From a virus, in IMG/VR virus record IMGVR_UViG_3300045922_000151, positions 1-64,000 of that record: a stretch of 64,000 nucleotides of DNA; one strand, written 5' to 3'. Numbering within the stretch: position 1 is the stretch's first letter; the number at the start of each line of letters is the position of its first letter. Of this stretch, positions 5,291-63,010 are shown piece after piece. Below the pieces are notes generated by a model. It was not told the DNA's origin. It saw only the letters and a list, made by a program, of their open reading frames with translations, and did no database searches. Made by a program: the position numbers and the translations under genes.

Positions 5291-5336
5291 ATTATAAATG
5301 ATTTATAGTTTTGCGTCTAATCATCCTGTTGATAAC
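5291..5336 (-). promoter_or_regulatory. Promoter with DnaA-box-like upstream element
   Basis: Read on the minus strand, GTTATCAACAG (5326-5336) is followed after 29 bp by TATAAT (5291-5296). The ATG of the 93-aa gene is 9 nt downstream. The same two elements with 28-29 bp between them occur at 9079-9123, 35583-35627 and, in phage B, 42287-42332. TTATCAACA differs by one base from the DnaA box TTATCCACA. Confidence 0.7.
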
Positions 5337-6509
5337 TCAAGGCTCGAGCGGTACCCCTGTTATCTGCCTTTCCTTGCTCATCACTGCCCACTTGCCCTTT
5401 GGATTGAGCCGATATTCCACGTCTGTTATCTCGCCGAAGCGGGAGTAGTTCCCGCACATGTCCACCACGAAGCAGTCCTTTTTGCTCTGGTGCGGTCGTA
5501 TGCCTCTGCCGATCATCTGCATGTATAAGGCCATGCTCATGGTCGGCCGGGCGATGATGATCGTGTCGAGCTCGGGGAAGTCAAACCCTATCGTAAGCAC
5601 CCCGACATTGAAGACCGTCGTGATGATGCCCCGCCGGAACTTCTCGATGATCTGCGCCCGGTCCTTTGGATGTGTCTTTGCCGAGACGGCGGCCGAGTCC
5701 GGCACCTGCGTCGCGAGCAGTTCTGCGTCCACTACATTTTTCACATACACGATCCGGAACTTTCTGCCTTTCTTTTTCGATGCTTCGATGATGCCCGGGA
5801 TGCGTTCGTAGACCATCTGCAATTTTATTTCCCGATCCACGACCTCCTCGTCGTATTCCGCGCCGGTTGAGTTGGCGATGAGCCGTTCGTTATCCCACGG
5901 CACTTCGTGATACCTGACCTGTGAGAGAAACCCTTGATCGTAGATTTCCTTGATCTGAGTGATGTGCAGAAACCTATTGAAGAATCTCGGCCTCTCTCGC
6001 GTAAGCAAGTTGAGCATAGAGAATTGTCTGTTGGTCCAAGGATCGAGGTATGTCTTGAGCCGGAACGCCGTCGCCGTAAGCCCGAGCACTTTTACATCCG
6101 TCATCTGACCGAGAAAGTTCATAAACATGGAACCGCTGAATGGCGGCACCAGATGACACTCGTCGATGATGATGTACTTCACATGCGCGAAGAGTTCCGG
6201 CTTTTTTGTGATCGACCCTATGGTCGCGAACGTCACATGCCCGACCTCCTTGCGCTTCATGCTCGCCGAGTAGATTTTTGCCTCGCCTCCGTAGGCGATA
6301 TACTTGGCATAGTTTTGCTCGAGCAGTTCCTTGCTCGGTTGAATGACGAGGACGCCCTCCTTGAGAGCGTTCGCCATGTGGCCGATGTAGATGCTTTTTC
6401 CTGAGCCTGTTGGAGCTACAATTATCGGATGATCTTCGTGATCGCCGTTCAGGAAGAAGTCCACTCCCTTATCGACCGCCTTTTTTTGATATTCTCGTAA
6501 TGTGAACAT
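5337..6509 (-). CDS. Superfamily 2 DEAD/DEAH-type helicase
   Basis: 390 aa. Motif I (APTGSGKS) is at residues 32-39, motif II (DECH) at 117-120, motif III (TATAFR) at 145-150 and motif VI (QMIGRGIRP) near 336-344. The set is complete, so the protein should be an active ATP-dependent DNA or RNA translocase. Among phage proteins it most resembles the UvsW/RadD-like class used in branched-DNA processing and recombination. It lies in the SSB/exonuclease/annealing operon. Its start codon overlaps the -35 of a plus-strand promoter that drives the ncRNA at 6545. Confidence 0.9.
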   Translation of the reverse strand: MFTLREYQKKAVDKGVDFFLNGDHEDHPIIVAPTGSGKSIYIGHMANALKEGVLVIQPSKELLEQNYAKYIAYGGEAKIYSASMKRKEVGHVTFATIGSITKKPELFAHVKYIIIDECHLVPPFSGSMFMNFLGQMTDVKVLGLTATAFRLKTYLDPWTNRQFSMLNLLTRERPRFFNRFLHITQIKEIYDQGFLSQVRYHEVPWDNERLIANSTGAEYDEEVVDREIKLQMVYERIPGIIEASKKKGRKFRIVYVKNVVDAELLATQVPDSAAVSAKTHPKDRAQIIEKFRRGIITTVFNVGVLTIGFDFPELDTIIIARPTMSMALYMQMIGRGIRPHQSKKDCFVVDMCGNYSRFGEITDVEYRLNPKGKWAVMSKERQITGVPLEP

Positions 6510-6538
6510 TGCTTGTCTTGCCCTAGCGGGTGTATAAT
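6509..6538 (+). promoter_or_regulatory. Plus-strand sigma70-type promoter for the ncRNA
   Basis: TTGCTT (6509-6514), an 18-bp spacer and a perfect TATAAT (6533-6538) preceded directly by TG. It reads opposite to every gene in the window. The predicted start is near 6545, just ahead of the structured region. Confidence 0.6.
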
Positions 6539-6544
6539 TTTCTT

Positions 6545-6677
6545 GTAGTTCTTTCCTCTTGGCAGACCGGTCATCCCGTGCTCCGCTTGCGGATGCACAA
6601 CCCTCGGAAGGTTATCCCGTTAGACCGGTCTGCCAACCCACCTGGCCCCCTCTCTACGGATTGGGGGCCTTTCTCTT
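6545..6677 (+). ncRNA. Putative structured phage ncRNA (three-way junction plus terminator)
   Basis: A 12-bp perfect stem pairs GGCAGACCGGTC (6561-6572) with GACCGGTCTGCC (6623-6634). It encloses two arms. One is GTGC/GCAC stacked on TCCGC/GCGGA with a CUUG-type cap (about 6578-6598). The other is AACC/GGTT (6599-6613). The sequence ATCCCGT occurs in both joining segments. A terminator follows at 6644-6677. No ORF fits. The unit has its own promoter and points against the operon, so it could be a trans-acting RNA or an antisense to the helicase leader. Alternatively, the palindrome GACCGGTC present in both arms may be a protein-binding site. Confidence 0.5.
6644..6677 (+). terminator. Rho-independent terminator (plus strand)
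   Basis: GGCCCCC (6644-6650) pairs with GGGGGCC (6663-6669) across a 12-nt loop, followed by TTTCTCTT. On the minus strand the hairpin is followed by AGG rather than a T run, so the terminator works for plus-strand transcription. Confidence 0.7.
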
Positions 6678-6972
6678 ATGATTCGTCTGTGGCCTCCTGG
6701 GAGCCTCCCTGGGTTGCGTTACCCTCGTTTTCGACCTCTGAGCCGTCCCCGGGCTCTAACCCCTCGGATTCGCTTGTTTCTTTCGATTCCTGCCCATCCA
6801 TGACCGGTCCTGGAATCGGTGGAGTGAATACGTTGCCCGGAGTGTAGCCCGTTTCGTACTCCCACCCCTGCCCTTTGATGTATCCCTGCTCGATCCGGCC
6901 CACGACGTACCCGAGGAACTCTATCGCCTCGTGGCTGTTCTCGACATCGTGCTCTATTTTTAGTGTAGCCAT
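6676..6972 (-). CDS. Hypothetical acidic early protein, 98 aa
   Basis: The N-terminal half is compact (TLKIEHDVENSHEAIEFLGY) and the C-terminal half is a low-complexity Gly/Glu/Ser tail rich in acidic residues. No domain is recognised. The stop codon abuts the plus-strand terminator. It begins 1 nt after the TM2 gene ends, so it belongs to the same operon. Confidence 0.55.
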   Translation of the reverse strand: MATLKIEHDVENSHEAIEFLGYVVGRIEQGYIKGQGWEYETGYTPGNVFTPPIPGPVMDGQESKETSESEGLEPGDGSEVENEGNATQGGSQEATDES

Positions 6973-18525: not shown

Positions 18526-18963
18526 CTAAACCGTGTCAACATAGGTCGCACATGTGAGCAAGACCTGTGCGGTCCGGTATGTGGCTTCGCCCACCGTGGT
18601 TTCTCCCCATGGCGTGAGCCCGACCTTTGCCAGATCGCACTTCGTGAGGGGTTTCTTAACGCAGAATACCCTCATGAGTTCGCTGACAGCTTCTCCCATG
18701 GCCTTCTCGGCTTTCTCCTGTTCGGCTTCTTTCGTCGCCGGATAGTAGACGTTGAGGCTGAAAATAAGGGAGATTTTACGGGAGTCCTGGCTTCCGGTCG
18801 ATGCGAATGCCACGTCATTTTCCGAGAGCATGACGATCACGGCCGGAAAGCCGTCTATCGTTGTTTTCGGGAATGCCGAGATGTGCTGAAAAAGCGTTGA
18901 ACTGCCTTGTATTTTGGCGGCTATCTCCTCGCGTATATCGTTGATGAAGTCTTTTGTGATCAT
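18526..18963 (-). CDS. Tail terminator-like protein
   Basis: 145 aa. A helical N-terminus (FINDIREEIAAKIQG) precedes alternating beta strands (PAVIVMLSENDVAFAS, KISLIFSLNVYYPA). This matches the gpU-like tail terminator fold, which caps the tube and joins it to the head. The gene order connector, gp10-like, terminator, tail tube supports it. Confidence 0.65.
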   Translation of the reverse strand: MITKDFINDIREEIAAKIQGSSTLFQHISAFPKTTIDGFPAVIVMLSENDVAFASTGSQDSRKISLIFSLNVYYPATKEAEQEKAEKAMGEAVSELMRVFCVKKPLTKCDLAKVGLTPWGETTVGEATYRTAQVLLTCATYVDTV

Positions 18964-32015: not shown

Positions 32016-32801
32016 TCATATAAGCGTTGCTTTTCTTCCGGTTAGCTTTTCCCACCGCGCGATTATGGTGTCGCAGTACACCGGATCAATCTCGACCATG
32101 TAGCATTTTCGTTTCGTGTGTTCACACGCCATGAGCGTACTCCCTGATCCTCCGAATGGGTCGTACACGACCTCTCCGATCTGCGTTGAGTTGAGTATCA
32201 GTTTTCTCATCAGTCCGACCGGCTTCATGGTCGGGTGCAGTTTCGATGACGATCGCTTGTCCTGATAAATAAGCGGATCGACTTCTTCCGGTACGGCCAT
32301 GATTGTTTTTCCTTTGCTTCGTTCGAACTTGTGCTTGCCATGCCACCCGTAGGCGATGAGTTCGTGCTGTGGCAGATAGTCTTTTCGTCCCACAACTACG
32401 CTGTTCTTAATCCAGATGATCATCTGACTGTAGTAGAATCCCGCGTCTGCCATGCCCTTTCGAAGAGCGCAGAACATCAGCTCTGCATTGAAAATGTAGG
32501 CGGCATTATAATCGGCCAGGTGAGGCACCGCTTTCTCAAGCCACTTTTTCGTGAACTCCGCGTACTCCTCCGGAGTCTGGAGTTGATCATTCGCGATCTC
32601 CCGATCTACGCTGATCTGCGTTTCCACGCCCTCTTTTTTGAAGCCCTTTTTGTTCTCCACATACGCCACACCATATGGCGGCTCCGTTGCGATGATCCGT
32701 ACCGGTATCTTGAATAGCTTCGTGAGGTCGTCGTTCACGCAGTCAGCCACCATGAGGCGGTGATCTCCTAACTCCCAGATTTGTCCTCGTTCTGTTTTCA
32801 T
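32016..32801 (-). CDS. DNA methyltransferase (N6/N4 amino group)
   Basis: 261 aa. The catalytic motif IV is EPPY (IATEPPYGVAY, near residue 38), a variant of DPPY, and motif I is DPFGGSGSTLMAC near 225. The order IV then I is that of the beta class. A LHPTMKPVGLMRKL segment precedes motif I. It may protect phage DNA from host restriction. The Glu in place of Asp in motif IV is unusual and should be checked for activity. Tandem with the ParB-methyltransferase gene upstream, with ATGA overlap. Confidence 0.88.
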   Translation of the reverse strand: MKTERGQIWELGDHRLMVADCVNDDLTKLFKIPVRIIATEPPYGVAYVENKKGFKKEGVETQISVDREIANDQLQTPEEYAEFTKKWLEKAVPHLADYNAAYIFNAELMFCALRKGMADAGFYYSQMIIWIKNSVVVGRKDYLPQHELIAYGWHGKHKFERSKGKTIMAVPEEVDPLIYQDKRSSSKLHPTMKPVGLMRKLILNSTQIGEVVYDPFGGSGSTLMACEHTKRKCYMVEIDPVYCDTIIARWEKLTGRKATLI

Positions 32802-34093
32802 AGTTTTTCAGCTTGCTTACCTGTTTGCGCCTCCCATCGCCTTATAATTTTTTCGCAGAATATCGGGTCGAGTTCCATTGTGCGGTTGAACCTGCCCATC
32901 TGCTCGCATGCCATCATCGTTGATCCTGATCCTCCGAAGAGGTCTACTACAATGTGACCGGCGGCCGTGCATCTTCGCAGAGGCTTCTCGTGGAGCTCGA
33001 GCGGTTTCTGCGTCGGGTGAATGTAGTCCGTCGTGACTTCCCGGTCCACGAGCCAGATGTTGATCATGTCGAGTATCTCCTCATGCACCTGATTGCCGGT
33101 CTCGACGTTCCTGTTCAGTATCTCGTTGAGCTTGGTGTACTTCTTATCGAGGTACGGACTTCCGATCGTGCCGTAAACGCATGGTTCGTACACCTTGTTG
33201 AATGCGATCTGTGGAGTCACGTTGAAGTTGTTTTTGACCCATATACAGACACGCTTGTTCGCTACGCCATTCTCCTCGAAGAGCGATTGCATCATGCCGA
33301 TATACCGCTCGTCGCACCAGTAATAAACGTGGACGTTTTCCTTTGAGTGCGCTATCGCATTCTCGAGCGTCTTGCCGATCATCGTTCTGTACACATCATC
33401 TTTTTTGGAGTCGTCCTTGCCCGAATACGAGCCTTGGTATTTCTCCTTGTTGCCGACACCTTTGGAGTAGTCGAGTCCGATGTTATATGGCGGGTCGCAG
33501 TAGATCATGTCCGCTTTGTCCTCACCCATCAGCTTTGCGACGTGTTCCGGATTCGTCGAGTCTCCCATCATGAGCCGGTGATTGCCGAGCTTATAGACAT
33601 CTCCGAGAGCCATGCGAGGCACGATCGGGTCCTCCGGATCGCTTCCTCCGTTTTGCATTCTGTCTTCGTCCTCTATCAAATCCACGTCATCCCACATGCT
33701 TGAGAGTTCCTCGTCGTTGAATCCCGACCGCAGGAGAGTTTCTATATCGAAGTTTTTGAATAGCTTGTCCCAGTCGAATTGTCCGCCTATGCGGTTGAGG
33801 CTCACGTTGAGTTCCTTTTCTTCATCGAGCGTCAGTTCCCGGTCCGGAACACGCACGTCTATCTCCTCCTCGGTGCGCCCGAGCGCGGCCAGTAATGCCA
33901 CGCGCTGATGACCTCCTATAAGCACGTTGTTCCTCGATCCGATGTTGATCGCCACCGGGATGACGATGCCCCAGGTCGTGAGCGAGTGCTCGAGGTCTGC
34001 ACGTTCTTTGTCGCTGATCTTGCGAGGGTTATACTCGGCCGGTATCAGGTCTTTGACTACTCTCTTTTCGTTTTTCCAGTTGATTTGTTTCAT
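32798..34093 (-). CDS. ParB-like domain fused to DNA methyltransferase
   Basis: 431 aa. Residues 1-100 form a ParB/Srx-type domain (LIPAEYNPRKISDKERADLE, LIGGHQRVALLAAL). The methyltransferase follows, with motif IV DPPYN (MIYCDPPYNIGLDY) near 205 and motif I VVDLFGGSGSTMMAC near 385. The fusion is widespread in phages. It is expected to methylate adenine or cytosine amino groups in phage DNA. Together with its neighbour it gives two specificities. Confidence 0.92.
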   Translation of the reverse strand: MKQINWKNEKRVVKDLIPAEYNPRKISDKERADLEHSLTTWGIVIPVAINIGSRNNVLIGGHQRVALLAALGRTEEEIDVRVPDRELTLDEEKELNVSLNRIGGQFDWDKLFKNFDIETLLRSGFNDEELSSMWDDVDLIEDEDRMQNGGSDPEDPIVPRMALGDVYKLGNHRLMMGDSTNPEHVAKLMGEDKADMIYCDPPYNIGLDYSKGVGNKEKYQGSYSGKDDSKKDDVYRTMIGKTLENAIAHSKENVHVYYWCDERYIGMMQSLFEENGVANKRVCIWVKNNFNVTPQIAFNKVYEPCVYGTIGSPYLDKKYTKLNEILNRNVETGNQVHEEILDMINIWLVDREVTTDYIHPTQKPLELHEKPLRRCTAAGHIVVDLFGGSGSTMMACEQMGRFNRTMELDPIFCEKIIRRWEAQTGKQAEKL

Positions 34094-35908: not shown

Positions 35909-36151
35909 TTATTCACTTTGTCTGTTTTGTTTCTCATAAGGGAGAATTACCGCTAAACGCCTCTTTGCTTCTACCTCCATTTGAAGTAAAAGAAGGCGTT
36001 TTAACATATAGTTTTCTCGGCACTTCTCACAGCAGAAAAAGAAGACACCGACCTGACTAGCGCCGTATTTACCCTTTTCAATCCATTCTCGGGGGAAATA
36101 GGCCTCGCAAGTTCCGCAACGCGCGGTATTGTTATTTTTTGTATTGAGCAT
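35909..36151 (-). CDS. Zinc-ribbon-like accessory protein, 80 aa
   Basis: CGTC near residue 12 and CCEKC near 42 give a two-knuckle zinc site. A helical Leu/Arg-rich C-terminus follows (MLKRLLLLQMEVEAKRRLAV). The start at 36151 has a clear GGAGG Shine-Dalgarno sequence, which is unusual in this window. It is the last B gene before the terminator. The duplicated left copy is at 1-23. Confidence 0.65.
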   Translation of the reverse strand: MLNTKNNNTARCGTCEAYFPREWIEKGKYGASQVGVFFFCCEKCRENYMLKRLLLLQMEVEAKRRLAVILPYEKQNRQSE

Positions 36152-36357
36152 AGAACCTCCAGAATAATCATAGCATAAACTAAACTAAACCGCCGCTAAA
36201 TACCTTGTTATCTATAATCTGCAACAAAACCTCCGCTTGCTCTCTGGTAAAACCGACATTAACCAATTTCTTAATTTGCTCTTCTTTTATTTTATTAAGA
36301 AATTCTATTTCCTTTTTTTCTTCTTTGTGAGACATAAATCCTTGTTAGGTTTGTAAA
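36129..36357. repeat. Right copy of the duplicated accessory module
   Basis: Matches 1-229 with two substitutions. It contains the end of the 103-aa gene, the whole 51-aa gene and the start of the 80-aa gene. Confidence 0.95.
36180..36335 (-). CDS. Small charged accessory protein, 51 aa (right copy)
   Basis: Near-identical to the product of 52-207. The substitutions in the duplicated block leave the frame intact in both copies, which supports coding. It lies between the 103-aa and 80-aa genes. The helical Lys/Glu-rich N-terminus and UBA-like C-terminus have no assigned function. Confidence 0.6.
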   Translation of the reverse strand: MSHKEEKKEIEFLNKIKEEQIKKLVNVGFTREQAEVLLQIIDNKVFSGGLV

Positions 36358-36656
36358 TTAGTTTGCCGACCCCTGGATTCCTCCAGTTTGGAGAGGAGAA
36401 GATTGATTGATCCGCAAGCATCACACATTGCCTGTTCTTCTGAGTCTTCTTCTATCCCGCCGTGACTATCTTTTTTAATAGTTTCAGCAATTTGTCTCAC
36501 ATTCTCTAATACTTCTTGACGGGTTTGGTCTAGAGCGGAGGAGAAAAATGACTTAATGTCGTAAAAATCTGGCATCATTTTGTCTGTTGGACGAAAACTA
36601 TCCCACCATTCCTCAAACCCCTCTAATATCTTCTTTTTTAATTCTTCGTGGGACAT
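36345..36656 (-). CDS. Acidic helical accessory protein, 103 aa (right copy)
   Basis: Shares its first ~43 residues with the 107-aa protein at 256-579 and then diverges, ending in a different tail (SINLLLSKLEESRGRQ). A shared phrase LLSKLEE near both C-termini hints at a common helix. Start context is AT-rich without a Shine-Dalgarno sequence. Similar short beginnings (YDIKSFFSSALDQTRQE) recall the 93-aa protein at 38850. Confidence 0.62.
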   Translation of the reverse strand: MSHEELKKKILEGFEEWWDSFRPTDKMMPDFYDIKSFFSSALDQTRQEVLENVRQIAETIKKDSHGGIEEDSEEQAMCDACGSINLLLSKLEESRGRQTNLQT

Positions 36657-36689
36657 ATTTTTAATTTATTTAATTCATAATATTTTAAT

Positions 36690-43021: not shown

Positions 43022-44154
43022 TGATATAATTCATTTAATTTTAATAATGTTTTTTTACCGACGAGACGACCGCCTAACTCATAAAGCTCCGCATCGTCGG
43101 CCACCCTATATTTCTTTTGAAAGGCCAAAACCCCTCTAGCGGTTATACTACCATAATAACCGGTAATTTGCGAGTTAATGGGGAATAACCCTTCAAACCT
43201 TAATATCTCTTGTAACGCCTTAACATCGGGATCGGTCATACCAAAATAAAGAGATTTAGCAAAATGATACTTTGGCTTTTCAGCTCCTTCCTCAAAGACA
43301 AAATTGATCGGGTAAGCGGCGAAAAAGTTTCGGTATTTATGAAAATCCTCGGTAATAACACGTCGACCATCAAGACCAGAACGATCCCAACTATCTTCAA
43401 TTATCAATGCCTTAATATATCTTTTGCCGTTTTTTATTATTATATTCATATAACATATTATTATTTATTTTATAATAGGTTTGTTATTTTCATCAATTTC
43501 TATCAATGTATAATCTACAGCTACTACGCTATGTCTCGCTGTAGTCGGAGCATATAAATCCAAATCGGGATATTTAATGGTAGGCACGGGTAAATCCCAT
43601 TCGTCATATTTCCAGTAATACCAAACCATTATCCCTTTATTGGTTTTCTGAATGGTAGATGCAATTATGTCAATATCGCCAACAGGGAGAACGACATAAT
43701 TATTTATCTTGAAAATTTGAGCCAGCTGATATTCATACCGCTGAACCTTATAACTATCAATCTGCGCGTCAGTCTTCTTTTGCGACGGAAAAAGTTGCTC
43801 AAGCAACGCCCCGTTCTTTCTCACTATTTCCCACGCGTCCACGCCATTCATTCCGCTACTTGGCTTGTTCTCCCTTTGCTGGTAAATAAAGCCAGCCGAA
43901 AAGTCAATCCATTCGCCTTCTTTGATATAGTGCTGAATACCGAGGATTTTAGCCAAACTCATCGCCACGCATTGATTACTCCCGTTTTGGTCAAATATCG
44001 GGAATTTTCGCCACTCGCTTTGCGGCTTCTCTACCCAATTAACGGGGTCAGCAGAGGCGACAATCTCTTCAAATTTGAAATCTTTAATCCGTTTTTCTGG
44101 GGGGCGGGTGTCAAGTAACGCTCCTGTGCCTTTTTGTTTTTTGAGGAAGCTCAT
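43018..44154 (-). pseudogene. Papain-like endolysin interrupted by an in-frame stop and short insert
   Basis: The 5' part (44154-43465) encodes the Cys (C62, NGSNQCVAM) and His (H208, TARHSVVAVDY). The 3' part (43449-43018) resumes in the same frame with IIEDSWDRS and the peptidoglycan-binding domain. Compared with A's intact gene, a UAA and about 36 extra AT-rich bases sit between NKPIIK and NGKRYIK. The sequence AAA occurs just before the stop and again just before the resumed coding. Separate translation would split the catalytic domain. Options: pseudogene, error, readthrough or translational bypass. Confidence 0.7.
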
Positions 44155-47100
44155 TGATATGGATTGATATTTATCATTTGATATATTTGGTTGGCGACTC
44201 TTTTGGTTATAATCTTCTTCTTCACATACTCATCAAACAGAGCCGCTTTTTCTTGGTTAGTTTTCTTTTCATTTAATTTTTTAACAATAAATTTCGCCCG
44301 TTCGCCGTTTTCAACGCCCAACTGTTTTATAAGACGGTCGGTATAGGTAAGCCCAAGTTTTTCATCTTCAATAATTTCGTTGATTTTCTTGGCTAATTGA
44401 GGATCATCTCTAATAATTTGGTCAAACATTTGAGCGGCCTGTTCTCTCGGAAGATTTTTAAGCTGATTATAAGAATCTTCGGCTTGCTGTTTCAAAATAA
44501 ATCTCGCCCGAGATTGTTCTCCGAGAATCTTTTTAATGTCTTCAAAATCTTTACTCCCCGCTCCAACCTGTTCTTGGGTTTTTGTTCTTAAAAATCTACT
44601 TACAATTGGTATCTCTCTTGTTGGGGGCATCTCCCCCTTCCCTATACTGGTAATTGTATTGATAATTTTTGAAACAGTCCTCCCTGCTCCTCCGATAATT
44701 TGTTCGTAACCATAATTTATATCTGCAGGAGATACCTCAATTCCTACGCCAGAAAGTCCTTTTGTAACTGCTATAAATGTTTTCCCCGTTACCGTGTCTT
44801 TTAAGTCAGAAAAGTATTGAATTGAAGCCGGGGCGTTCTGGTCCCAGTCGGGGCGGATTTTATTACCGCTCCACGCCCTATTTCTCGCTATATCAACAGG
44901 TAAGTCTAAGGCCGTTGGAGTAATCGCCGAAGTTACGTCTGTTCCGCCTATTGGATTATACCCTTCAATAATTGACGCTAAAACTCCGCTCATCACATCT
45001 TTAATGCCACTCGCCCTGCCCGACATTGCATCCAACGCATAATCGCTGGTAACTTTGATAGGTTTAATTCCCCACGCAACAGGAATAGCAATATAAGTAG
45101 CCCCGCCGTCGCTTTTCGGATACATTACTATTAAAGAGTTCATTCTGTCCCATTTAGAAACCTTGTCTCGCCAATCTGGGTCAACTCTATCATTCCATTC
45201 ATCTACAACAGCGTTAGCAACAACAATAGATGTTATTATCGCTCCTGCGACTTTCGGATTTCTCATTGCCCGCAACATCTTAACAGAACCCTGTATAGAG
45301 GCGTTGGAAAACATATAGAGAGCGTTAATAACCGGCCCGCCCCTGCCAAACTTGTTGAAATTGATTGATGCTTCTTTAGCCAATACCGCCGCTCGTTCTC
45401 GCGAAAGCCCCCGTGCCAGTGCTTCACGATAGACCGACAACCTCGTAGAATCTTCAAAAATAGTATTCCAATTATCAATCCCGCTTATTATTGCTTCTAC
45501 CGCTTTTTTAGGATTGCTTCGGTTTAGTTCTCTTATCTTTTGAATATCCAACTCTACTCTTGCTCTTGTAGAGAGCCCCAGTCCGCCCGTTGTCCCGCCG
45601 TCCATTCTCATTTGACGATAAAGTCTCGCTCCTTCAGAATCTACACCGCGAATATAATCAAGAATCGCTCTCTCGTTTTGTAATCTTAATTCCCTTCCCA
45701 CTACCTTCGTCGCCCCACTAAATCCAAACTCACCTTTTGAGGCTGCATAAATAACGGCTTCTTGTAAATCTCTTATCTTATTTGGAAACGAAAACTCTGG
45801 GTTAAAACGAGTCGCTAATCCAGAATAGAACCTTGTAATCGCTTGCACCATCCTCATTACTCCATCAACCTTATAACGATTCACGCCTCTCAAGGTTAAA
45901 GCTAAATGAGGATCATTTATTTTCAAAAACACGGGCTTACCTTTTTCTCGCAAGGGGAGAATTGTTGGGTCATTTAATAACTTATCAACAGATGGTCTAA
46001 AAATAACTTCTTGTATTCCCTGCACGGTAAACCTACCAGATGGCTTAATATCAAGCAGTGGTTTTAATTCCGGAATTTCCTGAATTATTTTTTTCACTTC
46101 TTTTGAAAAAAGCGGCAATCCTTCTTCTGCTAATGCACGATTTGTAAGCCACCACTCAAAAGAATCAGCAAATCTTTCCTCTACTTTTCTAATGCGACTT
46201 TCGGGTTCGCCAATTTCCTTCATCCAGTTTATCATTTCTTCGGCAACCTCTTTAGATTTGCCCCTCTTAAAGAATCTCCGTTTTAGTCCAAATTTTTCAT
46301 CAAAAAAGTGGCCGACTTCGTGCGCCAACACCTCTCTTGGCTTTGTTCTAACTTTTGCCCCAAGGGATTTTGCAAAATTTATAACCTTATCAAAAAATTC
46401 AACATCTATTGCTTCACGATGGGTAATTTTCGCAACCGGAATTCGGGGTGGCCTTACTTCTTCAAAAATCCCTAAATGTTTATTATCTCTCGCAAACTTT
46501 AATGTCGCCAAATCAACCCTGTTCTTCTCGGCACGAATTATTGCTTGTTCATAATTAGTTACGATATTTGTGAAAACATCTGCTATCTCCCGCTCGCTTC
46601 CCCTTGCCCTCAATATCCCCGTGTTCCTTACATCAAACGGTCTACCAGCAATCACCTGCCCTATGTCTTCGGTATCTTCAAAAACACGATTTAATGGAAC
46701 GTGATTCTTATATTTATTTCTAAGGGTATCATAAAGTTTTTTATCTATTACCTCACCTTCTAATAAAACATCAAGGGTTTTATTATTTAATTCTTGTAAT
46801 CTATTGGCAATTCTAACAACTTCTTTTCCTTGCGGAGAAGATTCTATTTTAGAAACTACTGCTTTAGCTTCGCTGGTAGTAATTCCGGCGGCTTTCTCAC
46901 CTAACGCCGCGTTTCTTTCTGGCGCGTGTCTTGCTATTAGATATTGATTTATATCATCAATTATTTGCCTATCTTTAATACCAAGCGTTTTAGAGACCTT
47001 GAGAATATCTCGGTCTATATCCTTAACAATATCTTTTGCTTCCTCAACTCTTGCCGCCACCCTGCCGTGAAAAAGTATTTCTGCCTGATATGGATCAGAT

Positions 47101-48182
47101 GACTCGGTTATTTTTACATCCTTTCTTTGCACTAACCTTCTCACTCTCTCCCAATCATTTTCAACAAACTCACGAGTAGCAAGCCACGCATTGGATACCT
47201 TCTCCTTAAACGCCTGATATGCTCCAATCTTTTTGGGTTCGGGTATCCCAAATACGATTTCAGTCGGGTTCGTTGGTGGTATTGCCCCTCCGCCCTCTTT
47301 TTGATATACTTGTTTATATGCGGAACCAAACGAAGTTTCCTCCCCTGCTTTTCCTGCTTTTTCTATTGCTGGTGTTTCTACTTGGGGTTTTTGCTGGAAG
47401 AGACGGGGCTCGGCAACACCCGGAACGGCCTCCTTACCAAGCGTTTCAGGAAGAGCGGTAGTTTCTACTTTTGCCGCTTGAGCAACTTCTGGTTTAACTT
47501 CTTTTGTTACTTTTTCTTTAGGAATTGATGGAGTAACTTGTCCCGCCTTTGTCTTCGCAAAGTTCTCCAGCTCTTGCTCAACTATCTTTTTATCGGTTAT
47601 CGGAGCTAATTTAGTAGCCAAAGTATCGGCTTCTTTCTCGGTAATGTCTTTAATTCCTGTTTTAAGTAAATCCTCTAATGCTCCTTTTTCCGTTGTCTGG
47701 GCAACCTTTTCGGCAAACTTTGCCTTACCACCTAATCCATAAGGAGGCAAAAGGAGTTCAGAAAGAAATCCAACAACAGGAGCAACACCGGGTATCTTGC
47801 CAATAACAGGGATTTCCCTAACTTTACTTTCTACAACCTCGCTTAAAAATGGCTGTGGGGCAAGTGCTTCTGTGATTGTTTTAGCTTCCGGTGCTGGAGC
47901 AGGAATACTTAATTTACCGCTTTCTAATGATTCTTTTAATGTCCCCCCGGCAAATTTAGAGATATTAGCAAAAAATTGCATCGTTTTAAGAGGAATAATT
48001 TGAGAAATATCAACAATCTTATGCCCAACTTTTGTCCTTAATTCTTCCCCTAATGCTTGAGCAGATTGCAAAGTTTTTCCCGCTTGACTATCTTTCTCGT
48101 AAATACCAATAGTAGAATCGCCCCCAACAGCCGAAGAGGTTATTTTATTTACGGCATTATTGATTTCATCAAAAATGCTCAT
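44151..48182 (-). CDS. Large polyvalent virion protein with metallopeptidase motif
   Basis: 1343 aa. Pro/Ala/Lys-rich linkers lie at 80-300. A zincin motif HEVGHFFDE is at about 619-627, with a downstream ERFADSFEWWL that could supply the third ligand. From ~760, TRFNPEFSFPNKIRDLQEA and later segments resemble LPD38-type domains of large polyvalent proteins. Such proteins travel in the virion and are ejected with DNA. It follows tail genes and precedes the lysis genes, as with podovirus internal proteins. Confidence 0.75.
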   Translation of the reverse strand: MSIFDEINNAVNKITSSAVGGDSTIGIYEKDSQAGKTLQSAQALGEELRTKVGHKIVDISQIIPLKTMQFFANISKFAGGTLKESLESGKLSIPAPAPEAKTITEALAPQPFLSEVVESKVREIPVIGKIPGVAPVVGFLSELLLPPYGLGGKAKFAEKVAQTTEKGALEDLLKTGIKDITEKEADTLATKLAPITDKKIVEQELENFAKTKAGQVTPSIPKEKVTKEVKPEVAQAAKVETTALPETLGKEAVPGVAEPRLFQQKPQVETPAIEKAGKAGEETSFGSAYKQVYQKEGGGAIPPTNPTEIVFGIPEPKKIGAYQAFKEKVSNAWLATREFVENDWERVRRLVQRKDVKITESSDPYQAEILFHGRVAARVEEAKDIVKDIDRDILKVSKTLGIKDRQIIDDINQYLIARHAPERNAALGEKAAGITTSEAKAVVSKIESSPQGKEVVRIANRLQELNNKTLDVLLEGEVIDKKLYDTLRNKYKNHVPLNRVFEDTEDIGQVIAGRPFDVRNTGILRARGSEREIADVFTNIVTNYEQAIIRAEKNRVDLATLKFARDNKHLGIFEEVRPPRIPVAKITHREAIDVEFFDKVINFAKSLGAKVRTKPREVLAHEVGHFFDEKFGLKRRFFKRGKSKEVAEEMINWMKEIGEPESRIRKVEERFADSFEWWLTNRALAEEGLPLFSKEVKKIIQEIPELKPLLDIKPSGRFTVQGIQEVIFRPSVDKLLNDPTILPLREKGKPVFLKINDPHLALTLRGVNRYKVDGVMRMVQAITRFYSGLATRFNPEFSFPNKIRDLQEAVIYAASKGEFGFSGATKVVGRELRLQNERAILDYIRGVDSEGARLYRQMRMDGGTTGGLGLSTRARVELDIQKIRELNRSNPKKAVEAIISGIDNWNTIFEDSTRLSVYREALARGLSRERAAVLAKEASINFNKFGRGGPVINALYMFSNASIQGSVKMLRAMRNPKVAGAIITSIVVANAVVDEWNDRVDPDWRDKVSKWDRMNSLIVMYPKSDGGATYIAIPVAWGIKPIKVTSDYALDAMSGRASGIKDVMSGVLASIIEGYNPIGGTDVTSAITPTALDLPVDIARNRAWSGNKIRPDWDQNAPASIQYFSDLKDTVTGKTFIAVTKGLSGVGIEVSPADINYGYEQIIGGAGRTVSKIINTITSIGKGEMPPTREIPIVSRFLRTKTQEQVGAGSKDFEDIKKILGEQSRARFILKQQAEDSYNQLKNLPREQAAQMFDQIIRDDPQLAKKINEIIEDEKLGLTYTDRLIKQLGVENGERAKFIVKKLNEKKTNQEKAALFDEYVKKKIITKRVANQIYQMININPYQ

Positions 48183-56721: not shown

Positions 56722-58531
56722 TTATTCAGCAGTTATAATCGCAACACCACCATTGGTTCTATTGAGGACAACTCCGTAGAGAATATCCGCAGTAGTCAAT
56801 GTATGGAGGTATGCTTGCTGGTAAGACGACTGCACACGAATGCCGTGTTTGCCAACTGTTCCGTTTTCTGTCATCACAGGCAACGAAGCAGTGGCATAGT
56901 GAATAGCATCATTCACGGCAAGCGCATTGTATCTTCCCGTTGAGCCGCTAACATTCTTAATGAAGTTAGAGGCATAGAGAGGAATACTATACAACTTGCC
57001 CATAACACCCTTGCCGATAGGAGACATCTCCGGAGCATTGACAGCCAAAGTGAACTTATCAATGCCCATCAAGTCATCCCATACAACAGCGGTGTCAATG
57101 AAGAATGCCGCTTCACCAAGATTAGCGCCCGTAGCCGCCAAAATAGCAATCGCCTTGCGAATATTTGAGTCAACAAGATCAGTAGTAGAAGTGCCAACCG
57201 AAGAAGTAAATGAACTAAACAAGTCGGTAATTGCCTGTTCTAACTTCTTTGCTAACTCATATCCGGCATTCTTTGCCAACCTGTCTTGGAGGTAGAAAGA
57301 ACGCATAACCTGAACAGCTTCTTTATCCTCAATTCAATTTTGTTATCACAAGAACATCTCTTTCTCGTTTCCTTGTATTACTACAAGGTTCGGGTCATAT
57401 CACGCCTTTCGGCTGGGACATTTGTGGGGATTATATTTATTCACCCCTGACCTCCTCACTCGCCCGGAGAGCCTTTCGCAATCTCTCCTGCTGGCTCTGT
57501 ATTATCCAATTTCTGGACTTCTACAGAATTAGCCCCATTATTCAATAATTCGTCATCATTATCTCTCCTGTATGTTTTTCTATGACAGATTTTACATAGG
57601 GTTATCCCGTTATTTATATCGTAAAAATAAGGATCATTTAACCAAAATGGATTATTTCTGTCTCCGGGATAATCACTCAATAACTTCCATAATCTTACCT
57701 TATGGTGCGGTTCAAGCATTTTTCTCTCTAATTTTTCCCCGCATATTTGACAGGTAAAATTATCTCTCTGAAAAACCGCAAGCCTCCATTTCTTGTAAGC
57801 AATCAATCCTCTCATTCTCGTTCCGATATACCTTAATCCATTTTTGTAATTTGGGTTTAATTCCCCCAGATATAATATTCTTCTATAGTCGGCTAAACAT
57901 TTTCTTGAGCAATAAGTTCTTCTATCTTTTGCATAACTCTTAAATGTAGAAAATTCCTTTCCGCAATTTTCGCATTTTAATTTTACCCTTCCATATTCAC
58001 TTCTGCATTTCAAAGAGCAAAATAATATTTTTTGCTTTTTAAGATAGCTCTTTCTTCTGTAAAACTCTTTTCCGCAATTCAGACAAAATCTTTGCACTGC
58101 TCTATTTTTTCTACTCCATTCAACAAAACATTTCCAAGAACAACATTTTTTATGGTCTGGAGGAATTTCCTTATTCTTACAATTTACGCATAACATTGAT
58201 TGTAAAAGAGCAATAATGATTGGCGAATTAAGGTCGTAATTGTGCTTGCGAAACTTACCTCATACCACTGGTTAACGACCAAGTCTTTGGTAGAGTAGGT
58301 AGCGCTGTTCAAAGTTACCGCGGTAGCGTTTGCTTTGGCATTGGCAGTCATCGCAGAAAGGTCTGGAGTGTGCAATGTATCACCCCCATCAGCTAATTCA
58401 TCTGAACGGTCAACGAAAAAGTTGGCCGCTTGAATTTCTGATTTGAAGTAATCATTGATTTTTTCACCCCAAACTTCTGGGATATACGAAGCAAGGTTTG
58501 TTGCTGTAAAAGTGCCAGTAGGCCAAGGCAT
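56722..58531 (-). CDS. Major capsid protein gene (phage B) split by an intron
   Basis: Exon 1 (from ATG 58531, MPWPTGTFTATNLASYIPEV) runs to about residue 95, ending near WYEVSFAS at about 58245. Exon 2 resumes near 57335 with IEDKEAVQVMRSFYLQDRLA and runs to 56722 (GVAIITAE). The joined product would be about 300 aa, the usual size for a small HK97-fold capsid of this podovirus group. Neither part is a complete capsid. Exact splice points cannot be fixed from sequence alone. High expression of capsid would require efficient splicing. Confidence 0.8.
57336..58245 (-). ncRNA. Group I intron with HNH ORF in the capsid gene
   Basis: Core elements lie at the 3' side and partly overlap the ORF's end. 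A P7-like pair GGTCA/TGACC is at 57448-57452 with 57393-57397. Hairpins are GCC-GAAA-GGC (57404-57413) and CCTTGTA-GTAA-TACAAGG with a GNRA cap (57371-57388, P9-like). Stems GGAGAG/CTCTCC (57466-57488) and TCTGTA/TACAGA (57496-57527) fit P6- and P4/P5-like positions. Ends are approximate. The flanking capsid frame and internal homing endonuclease make an intron far more likely than an insertion. Confidence 0.75.
57456..58196 (-). CDS. Intron-encoded HNH homing endonuclease
   Basis: 246 aa. Three to four zinc knuckles form the N-terminal DNA-binding half (CVNCKNKEI, FCLNCGKEFYRRKS, KCENCGKEFSTFKS). The HNH domain is at about 150-215 (FTCQICGEKLERKMLEPHHK, NGITLCKICHRKTYRR). It should recognise and cut intronless capsid alleles, causing homing of the intron. 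Its last codons coincide with intron core stems. Confidence 0.9.
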   Translation of the reverse strand: MLCVNCKNKEIPPDHKKCCSWKCFVEWSRKNRAVQRFCLNCGKEFYRRKSYLKKQKILFCSLKCRSEYGRVKLKCENCGKEFSTFKSYAKDRRTYCSRKCLADYRRILYLGELNPNYKNGLRYIGTRMRGLIAYKKWRLAVFQRDNFTCQICGEKLERKMLEPHHKVRLWKLLSDYPGDRNNPFWLNDPYFYDINNGITLCKICHRKTYRRDNDDELLNNGANSVEVQKLDNTEPAGEIAKGSPGE

Positions 58532-61588: not shown

Positions 61589-63010
61589 TTATTCAAACGA
61601 GTTTTTGGAAAAATAATCCCTTCTTGATTGTATTTGCATCATTTGTAGTTTTTTATCCATTCCCGGCGGCTGGGCTATCTGTAACTGATAAGCCAAGCTA
61701 TCCAAAACATCGTCATTAATTCCCTTCGGAAACATAAACATTTCTTCCTCTAAATCCTTACATTCTCCCTCAATGTGAAAAACGCTTCCGCTTTCATATC
61801 TTGGTATTAAACCCCTGATTCTTATCTCTTTTGCCGTTTGACTATGCTCCAATTCTACAATAGGCAAAAAGACATTTCTTTTTCTCATTTCTTCGTCTAA
61901 AAATGGCTTTAATCCTATAAGATATTGAGTTTTTTCTATTCCTATTTTTTCAAGTTTTTCTAATTCATATAAAGAAAAAATCATATCTACCAATTCTGTT
62001 GGCGAAACTCTTTTTTTAAATGCTTTTATATTCCATTTATTTTCTTTGTCTACGTAGTTAATAACAAATCCGGTATAATTCGCGGAATCTTTTTTTGACA
62101 TCGCCGGATCAATTGTCAAAAACTTCCTAACTTCAAGTTTTTGGATTTCTTCTGCTTTTCTGGTTTTAATCCATTCGGGCTTAAACTCTTGTCCCTCAAT
62201 AGCAATGGGTGTCTGTTGATAAAGCGATTGCCAATTATAAGTTCCAATTGTTTCTTTTATTTTTAATAAATCGTCTAAACTATACTTCTCTGGCCATAAC
62301 GGCTCGCCAAACTTTCTATATTTCTCCTCTGTTTCTGCTATTGCTGGATATTTGATAACTGCCCAATCTTCCGGCTGTTCTTTTAAAAGTCTTCCCACTA
62401 AATCATCAAAGTGCCATCTTGTTATCATAATTACAATTTTGCCATCTTTTTCTAACCTCGTATAAAGAGTTGAAGTAAAATAATCCCATACTTTTTCTCT
62501 ATAAACTTGGCTTTCTGCTTCTTCTCTGTTTTTAACTGGGTCATCAATAATAAGCAAATTCGCTCCACGTCCAGTTATTCCTCCGCCCAAGCCAACCGCA
62601 ACATAACTGCCATTATGTCCTTTTAATTTCCACTCGCTTTTAGCGCTTATATCCTCTCTAATTTCGTGTCCAAAAACAAATTTGTATTCCGGAGTATTTA
62701 TTATATCCCTTGTTTGCGCCCCAAATTTAGAAGCCAAATCTGCCGAATAAGATGAAACAATAATTTCGTGGTCTGGATTTCTGCCTAAATACCAAGCGGG
62801 AAACATAATACTGGACAACAAAGATTTTCCGTGTCTTGGAGGTAAAAGTAAAATAAGTCTTTTGATTTCTCCTTTTTCTACTTTTTCTAAATGATGAATA
62901 GTCTCGTTATGATGCCAATTAAACTGATAATCTTTCTTTAGTAACAAAATAAAAGCATCAAAATAACACCTTGCCGCTTCTCTTGCTAATAATAATTTTT
63001 CATTTTCCAT
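61589..63010 (-). CDS. terL: Terminase large subunit (phage B)
   Basis: 473 aa. Walker A PPRHGKS is at 57-63, Walker B LLIIDDP near 155, coupling ITRWHFDD near 195. The nuclease domain has FLTIDPAMSK near 300 and NDDVLDSLAYQLQ at the end. This is a phage T7/P22-type TerL without homology to A's TerL beyond fold motifs. Confidence 0.95.
   Translation of the reverse strand: MENEKLLLAREAARCYFDAFILLLKKDYQFNWHHNETIHHLEKVEKGEIKRLILLLPPRHGKSLLSSIMFPAWYLGRNPDHEIIVSSYSADLASKFGAQTRDIINTPEYKFVFGHEIREDISAKSEWKLKGHNGSYVAVGLGGGITGRGANLLIIDDPVKNREEAESQVYREKVWDYFTSTLYTRLEKDGKIVIMITRWHFDDLVGRLLKEQPEDWAVIKYPAIAETEEKYRKFGEPLWPEKYSLDDLLKIKETIGTYNWQSLYQQTPIAIEGQEFKPEWIKTRKAEEIQKLEVRKFLTIDPAMSKKDSANYTGFVINYVDKENKWNIKAFKKRVSPTELVDMIFSLYELEKLEKIGIEKTQYLIGLKPFLDEEMRKRNVFLPIVELEHSQTAKEIRIRGLIPRYESGSVFHIEGECKDLEEEMFMFPKGINDDVLDSLAYQLQIAQPPGMDKKLQMMQIQSRRDYFSKNSFE

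Follow-up and report, generated by a model that had tools for sequence, protein, structure and literature searches.

A strongly structured non-coding element upstream of a phage helicase gene and its possible role as an antisense RNA

The region at 6559-6636 of the window, by which we mean the whole 64,000-nucleotide stretch of viral DNA that was analysed, is a real, isolated and strongly structured non-coding element. Read on the plus strand, it folds as a perfect 14-bp inverted repeat that closes a three-way junction with two arms, and it lies between a helicase gene and a 98-aa ORF on the minus strand (Table 1). This element is probably a phage small RNA. Our tentative preference, held at well below even confidence, is that a folded plus-strand RNA of ~130 nt acts as a cis-antisense RNA on the helicase mRNA leader; its transcription, strand, pairing and effect are what we infer from the features described below.

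Table 1 Coordinates and parts of the element and of the features next to it
Feature	Position	Strand	Basis and remarks
DEAD/ResIII helicase gene	5337..6509	-	phrog_16, 3.9e-71; PF04851/PF00271; putative RNA would be antisense to its mRNA leader
Candidate -35 TTGCTT	6509..6514	+	Sequence; 18 bp from the -10; 3/6 consensus positions; absent from promoter-scan list
Candidate -10 TATAAT	6533..6538	+	Sequence; same box 9-10 nt before ATG at six minus-strand window sites
Putative transcript, ~133 nt	6545..6677	+	Placed by -10 spacing and terminator; z -5.65
P1 5' arm TTGGCAGACCGGTC	6559..6572	+	Perfect 14-bp inverted repeat; fold
Joint J1/2 AUCCC	6573..6577	+	First ATCCCGT copy at 6573-6579
Arm P2 GUGC-UCCG-CUUG-CGGA-U-GCAC	6578..6598	+	8 bp, one bulged U, loop CUUG; fold
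Arm P3 AACC-CUCGGAA-GGUU	6599..6613	+	4 bp, weak, loop CUCGGAA; MFE only, not in centroid
Joint J3/1 AUCCCGUUA	6614..6622	+	Second ATCCCGT copy at 6614; fold
P1 3' arm GACCGGTCTGCCAA	6623..6636	+	Pairs with 6559..6572; fold
Terminator-like GC hairpin GGCCCCC...GGGGGCC	6644..6669	+	7 bp; sequence and fold
Interrupted U tract TTTCTCTT	6670..6677	+	Sequence, directly after the GC hairpin
98-aa ORF	6676..6972	-	Precedes the element in the minus-strand direction; no Pfam match
Third GACCGGTC palindrome near the element	6802..6809		Other two at 6565-6572 and 6623-6630, both inside P1

Genomic setting of the element

The record looks like phage A, one full circle of ~36.1 kb, joined to a different, low-GC phage B. 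This view rests on end repeats (window bases 1-229 recur at 36129-36357 with 99% identity, and bases 437-597 at 36514-36672 with 89%), on a fall in GC from ~0.50 to ~0.38 near 36 kb, and on the related phage genome G010, whose matches to phage A genes continue over the point where the circle closes. Phage B has its own terminase (61589-63010) and a DarB-like protein (44151-48182), and the A/B junction is either a chimera or a boundary between two neighbouring related elements. Elsewhere in the window, 32798-34093 encodes a ParB-like domain fused to a DNA methyltransferase.

Genes near the element encode an SSB, a NinB/Orf-like mediator, a NinG/Rap-like nuclease and a small protein with a weak exonuclease-profile match. 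The helicase start codon is supported by a relative with 62% identity (L002), which aligns from residue 1. An earlier, sequence-only reading had placed everything in the window other than the element on the minus strand, which is true of the credible genes; plus-strand ORFs in two gaps face reading frames that are conserved in relatives.

The element is more stable than expected by chance

The putative transcript folds at -59.7 kcal/mol, compared with -38.9 kcal/mol for shuffled sequences, and none of 200 shuffles was as stable (z -5.65). The longer region 6509-6677 gave a z of -4.9, again with 0 of 200 shuffles as stable. When 120-nt segments on both strands of the whole 36-kb phage A were folded (1,806 in total), the element held the first two ranks by z, one on the plus strand (-6.8) and the other on the minus strand (-6.6). 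Perfect inverted repeats of at least 14 bp enclosing no more than 120 nt occurred in only 3 of 300 shuffled copies of phage A. A second structured plus-strand region, at 18561, was set aside as it faces a conserved coding frame.

Coding potential was assessed by frame comparison, in which no frame of 6510-6680 resembled any protein of the relatives. We rejected a plus-strand protein-coding ORF at 6530-6847, whose start lies within the promoter, which overlaps the minus-strand ORF and for which the frame comparison gave no match. ARAGORN found no tRNA.

The structure itself departs in several details from its first description. The closing stem, reported as 12 bp and perfect, is indeed perfect but extends to 14 bp. 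Both inner arms are present; however, P3 has merely 4 bp, is missing from the centroid structure and is unstable when the region is folded as DNA. The ATCCCGT repeat, said to occupy both joints, does occur at 6573 and 6614, but its first copy is only half in the joint and its GT pairs in P2. All pairs of the element are Watson-Crick, with zero G-U pairs, and the minus strand folds as well as the plus strand (-61.5 versus -59.7 kcal/mol), so the structure does not tell which strand is used.

Promoter and terminator signals on the plus strand

TATAAT (6533-6538) and TTGCTT (6509-6514) are both present with the 18-bp spacing that had been claimed for a promoter, but TTGCTT agrees with the consensus at only three of six positions and is absent from the promoter-scan output. 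A 7-bp GC hairpin followed by TTTCTCTT does lie on the plus strand as described, with a T run that is interrupted. Terminator-like sites as a class were not enriched in the region (21 found versus 15.6 expected). TATAAT occurs 16 times on the phage A plus strand, mostly within genes, and simple arithmetic from these copies gives a chance of ~1-2% for finding one within ~35 nt upstream of the stem.

We further looked at the promoters of the phage itself. On the minus strand, TATAAT lies exactly 9-10 nt before an ATG at 5291, 13617, 20337, 28589, 35583 and 63422, and at the five of these six sites that belong to phage A the -35 matches merely 2-4 of six positions. Relatives show the same pattern of TATAAT before ATG, and a Shine-Dalgarno-like motif was found in only 6 of 79 minus-strand genes. 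Judged from these sequence patterns, phage A and its relatives seem to transcribe leaderless mRNAs, or mRNAs with almost no leader, from TATAAT boxes accompanied by weak -35s. The plus-strand TATAAT at 6533 is therefore a fair match to the phage's own promoters; its distance to a start codon is irrelevant because no ORF follows. A candidate promoter, a structured non-coding body and a terminator-like site all lie on one strand, with weak matches for the promoter and the terminator, and together they provide moderate evidence for the element as a putative transcription unit. The -10 box and the U tract favour the plus strand.

The element is found in a single copy

The sequence-only reading had assigned the element to no family, in agreement with Rfam 15, which gave 0 matches at gathering score in the window (best sub-threshold match, Atu_C7 at 15.5 bits). 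A blastn search against named phages and plasmids found no homologue of the element. Covariance model R1, which was built on one sequence and is therefore insensitive to diverged copies, found no homologue in the window's record, in 33 records from protein searches, in four further records of terminase relatives or in the loci. Pattern scans of IMG/VR with the joints, arms and stem, checked for the closing stem, gave chance matches only, and all 23 matches of a pattern scan of GTDB genomes were without the structure. No relative was detected by a prophage search with the terminase pair in genome contigs. In these searches, which may not have covered near-identical records, there was therefore no homologue for a covariation test.

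Protein searches identified four relatives of phage A (G010, G035, G036 and G034), from all of which the element is absent according to the covariance model and to blastn, which gave no convincing match. G010, the closest syntenic relative (39 kb), is collinear with phage A along the genome, with most shared proteins ~35-68% identical, and has an unrelated SNF2-like helicase gene in place of the window's helicase. No such structure lies upstream of the helicase at L002, nor was the element seen upstream of the other helicase relatives among L002-L010. The helicase swap in G010, together with the lack of the structure at L002, places the element at a gene-replacement boundary, and it may travel with the helicase or may have arisen locally.

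A cis-antisense role is tentatively preferred

What is directly seen is where the element lies, which sequence features it has, that it folds exceptionally well and that it is non-coding. On this basis we propose, with the reserve already stated, that an RNA would start from the TATAAT at 6533, run against the direction of all genes and end at the hairpin at 6644-6677. By construction, such an RNA would be complementary over its full length to the stretch of the gene-strand transcript that separates the 98-aa ORF from the helicase start. The loops that it exposes and its AUCCC(GU) joints would begin pairing with their mirror images in the helicase leader, and duplex formation together with head-on transcription would limit helicase expression and read-through of the operon. 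The helicase leader is the one partner that needs no search, because the complementarity follows from the geometry. TATAAT, structure and plus-strand U tract stand in the right order within 170 nt, which argues for a cis-antisense role; the equal folding of the minus strand, the number of plus-strand TATAAT boxes, which makes one near the stem no remote coincidence, the weak -35 and U tract, and the lack of homologues and covariation argue against it.

CopA/CopT and Sok/hok are cis-encoded antisense RNAs that are short, highly folded and opposite the leader of the controlled gene. The putative RNA shares these traits with respect to the helicase leader, and the CUUG loop of its P2 arm conforms to the YUNR loop pattern, one that often arises by chance. 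Unlike these systems, the element has no plasmid or toxin context and a different sequence, and it spans the helicase leader without reaching the start codon. The sequence-only interpretation stands in so far as the element is structured and non-coding, has signals on the plus strand and belongs to no known family. The plus-strand transcription that it proposed is putative, as is its suggestion of a regulator or a defence or anti-defence RNA, and nothing points toward a defence or anti-defence role.

If transcribed, the element would enlarge the small set of orphan structured RNAs found in phages whose hosts are uncultivated, and would suggest that a recombination operon is under antisense control in a phage with seemingly leaderless mRNAs, on which small RNAs that mask Shine-Dalgarno sites could not work in the usual way. 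At present it is one well-formed, unreplicated case, whose main use is for querying metagenomes and metatranscriptomes yet to come.

Alternative functions

The equal stability of the two strands would also suit a structure that works in cis on the gene strand. Lying in the intercistronic mRNA from the 98-aa ORF to the helicase, it would shield mRNA segments or keep them apart, or would adjust how strongly the helicase is translated, and the plus-strand TATAAT would be incidental. We consider this possible, though on balance unlikely. The minus strand folds as well as the plus strand and yields the second-best segment of phage A, and the distant relative G036 carries a perfect 21-bp inverted repeat directly upstream of a replication-type gene with a z of -8.25 on the gene strand. 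However, the U tract is found on the plus strand only, the helicase ATG has no TATAAT box before it on the gene strand, and the G036 element has no clear sequence in common with the one described here.

It is unlikely that the element acts at the DNA level, either through a protein bound to GACCGGTC palindromes and the direct repeat or as the boundary of a cassette or of a recombination event, the folding of the RNA being only a by-product. GACCGGTC is a possible protein-binding site, a putative assignment that draws on its distribution: three copies lie within 245 bp, together with a direct repeat GGTYATCCCGT spaced 41 bp, and phage A holds four copies (6565, 6623, 6802 and 24760) versus 0.58 expected. 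The sequence-only reading had already named protein binding to these palindromes as its alternative, to which the third copy at 6802 now adds some weight, since GACCGGTC is the sole 8-bp palindrome of phage A with three copies within 300 bp. The perfect stems without G-U pairs, and the location at a site where the syntenic relative has a different, SNF2-like helicase gene, are also in line with a DNA-level role. Against this, two of the three clustered copies are no more than the two inverted-repeat arms, the palindrome runs well beyond the 8-mer and encloses nested hairpins, a separate terminator-like hairpin is present, and the relatives have no GACCGGTC cluster. A replication origin at the element is unlikely, as the likely replication genes (an HTH initiator and a DnaC/IstB-like loader) sit at 34.3-35.6 kb.

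Comparison with the C4 antisense RNA

In architecture the element is nearest to the C4 antisense RNA of phages P1 and P7 (RF01695), but it is not classed as C4. The 5' end of C4 is made by RNase P. The putative phage RNA shares with C4 a core of 77-78 nt in which a long stem closes off two arms and the 3' joint is left unpaired. The dimensions of P1 C4 (a 17-bp stem and two arms in 77 nt) were taken straight from the P1 record. In phage P1 the joint of C4 pairs with its target (PMC5320573). By analogy the element may work like C4, but it lies on the strand opposite to its neighbouring genes and has its own terminator-like site directly downstream; no target pair was found here, and no icd or ant genes were seen.

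We think it quite improbable that the element is a C4-like antisense RNA acting in trans, in which J3/1 and the P3 loop would pair with leaders of other mRNAs, whether these come from the phage, from a resident prophage or from the host. Size and layout do resemble C4 (78 versus 77 nt; a 14- versus a 17-bp stem; two arms; a J3/1 of 9 versus 7 nt), and the Rfam C4 model aligns end to end with the window's record, but only at 13 bits (E 0.48), below its gathering threshold of 45 bits. No convincing pair of C4-type complementary a and b sites was found near the start of an antirepressor-type mRNA, and none of the 79 translation-initiation regions did better than shuffled fragments. Adjoining phage B has a 13-nt perfect complement of P3/J3/1 at 57600-57612, but this falls within a gene, close to the 3' end of that gene, and the chance expectation for such matches is ~0.2. 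Moreover, C4 is encoded immediately before its target and on the strand of that target, which is not the case here.

It is likewise quite improbable that this C4-shaped three-way-junction RNA founds a new class of phage small RNAs, an independent unit that goes with the helicase and acts as antisense on the recombination operon, in a phage whose genes appear mostly to be without Shine-Dalgarno sites and leaderless. Most remote of all is a short inverted-repeat element (MITE/REPIN-like), relict or mobile, or else a palindrome that arose by accident and has no function at present. Such an origin would fit a single copy with no homologue in anything searched at a gene-replacement boundary, but not a perfect stem in a small, dense phage genome, with no further copy of its termini in the record or IMG/VR and no visible target-site duplication.

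Other intergenic inverted repeats

Bidirectional terminators of the same phage group (in G010 near L026:4848-4880 and in G036 at L074:6545-6641) are, like the element, intergenic hairpins by replication or recombination genes. The element differs from them in that its T tract is on one strand and in a separate hairpin, and in that its long stem encloses two arms. The G036 repeat encloses 55 nt and has T runs on both strands; on the opposite strand its stem arm is also followed by ATCCCG, which may be a coincidence. Finally, nested inverted repeats of 13 and 9 bp (TGCGAAGATGGAC, TCCCAACAG), unrelated to the element, occur at L008 ~300 nt before locus position 1287, where they stand before a related helicase gene.
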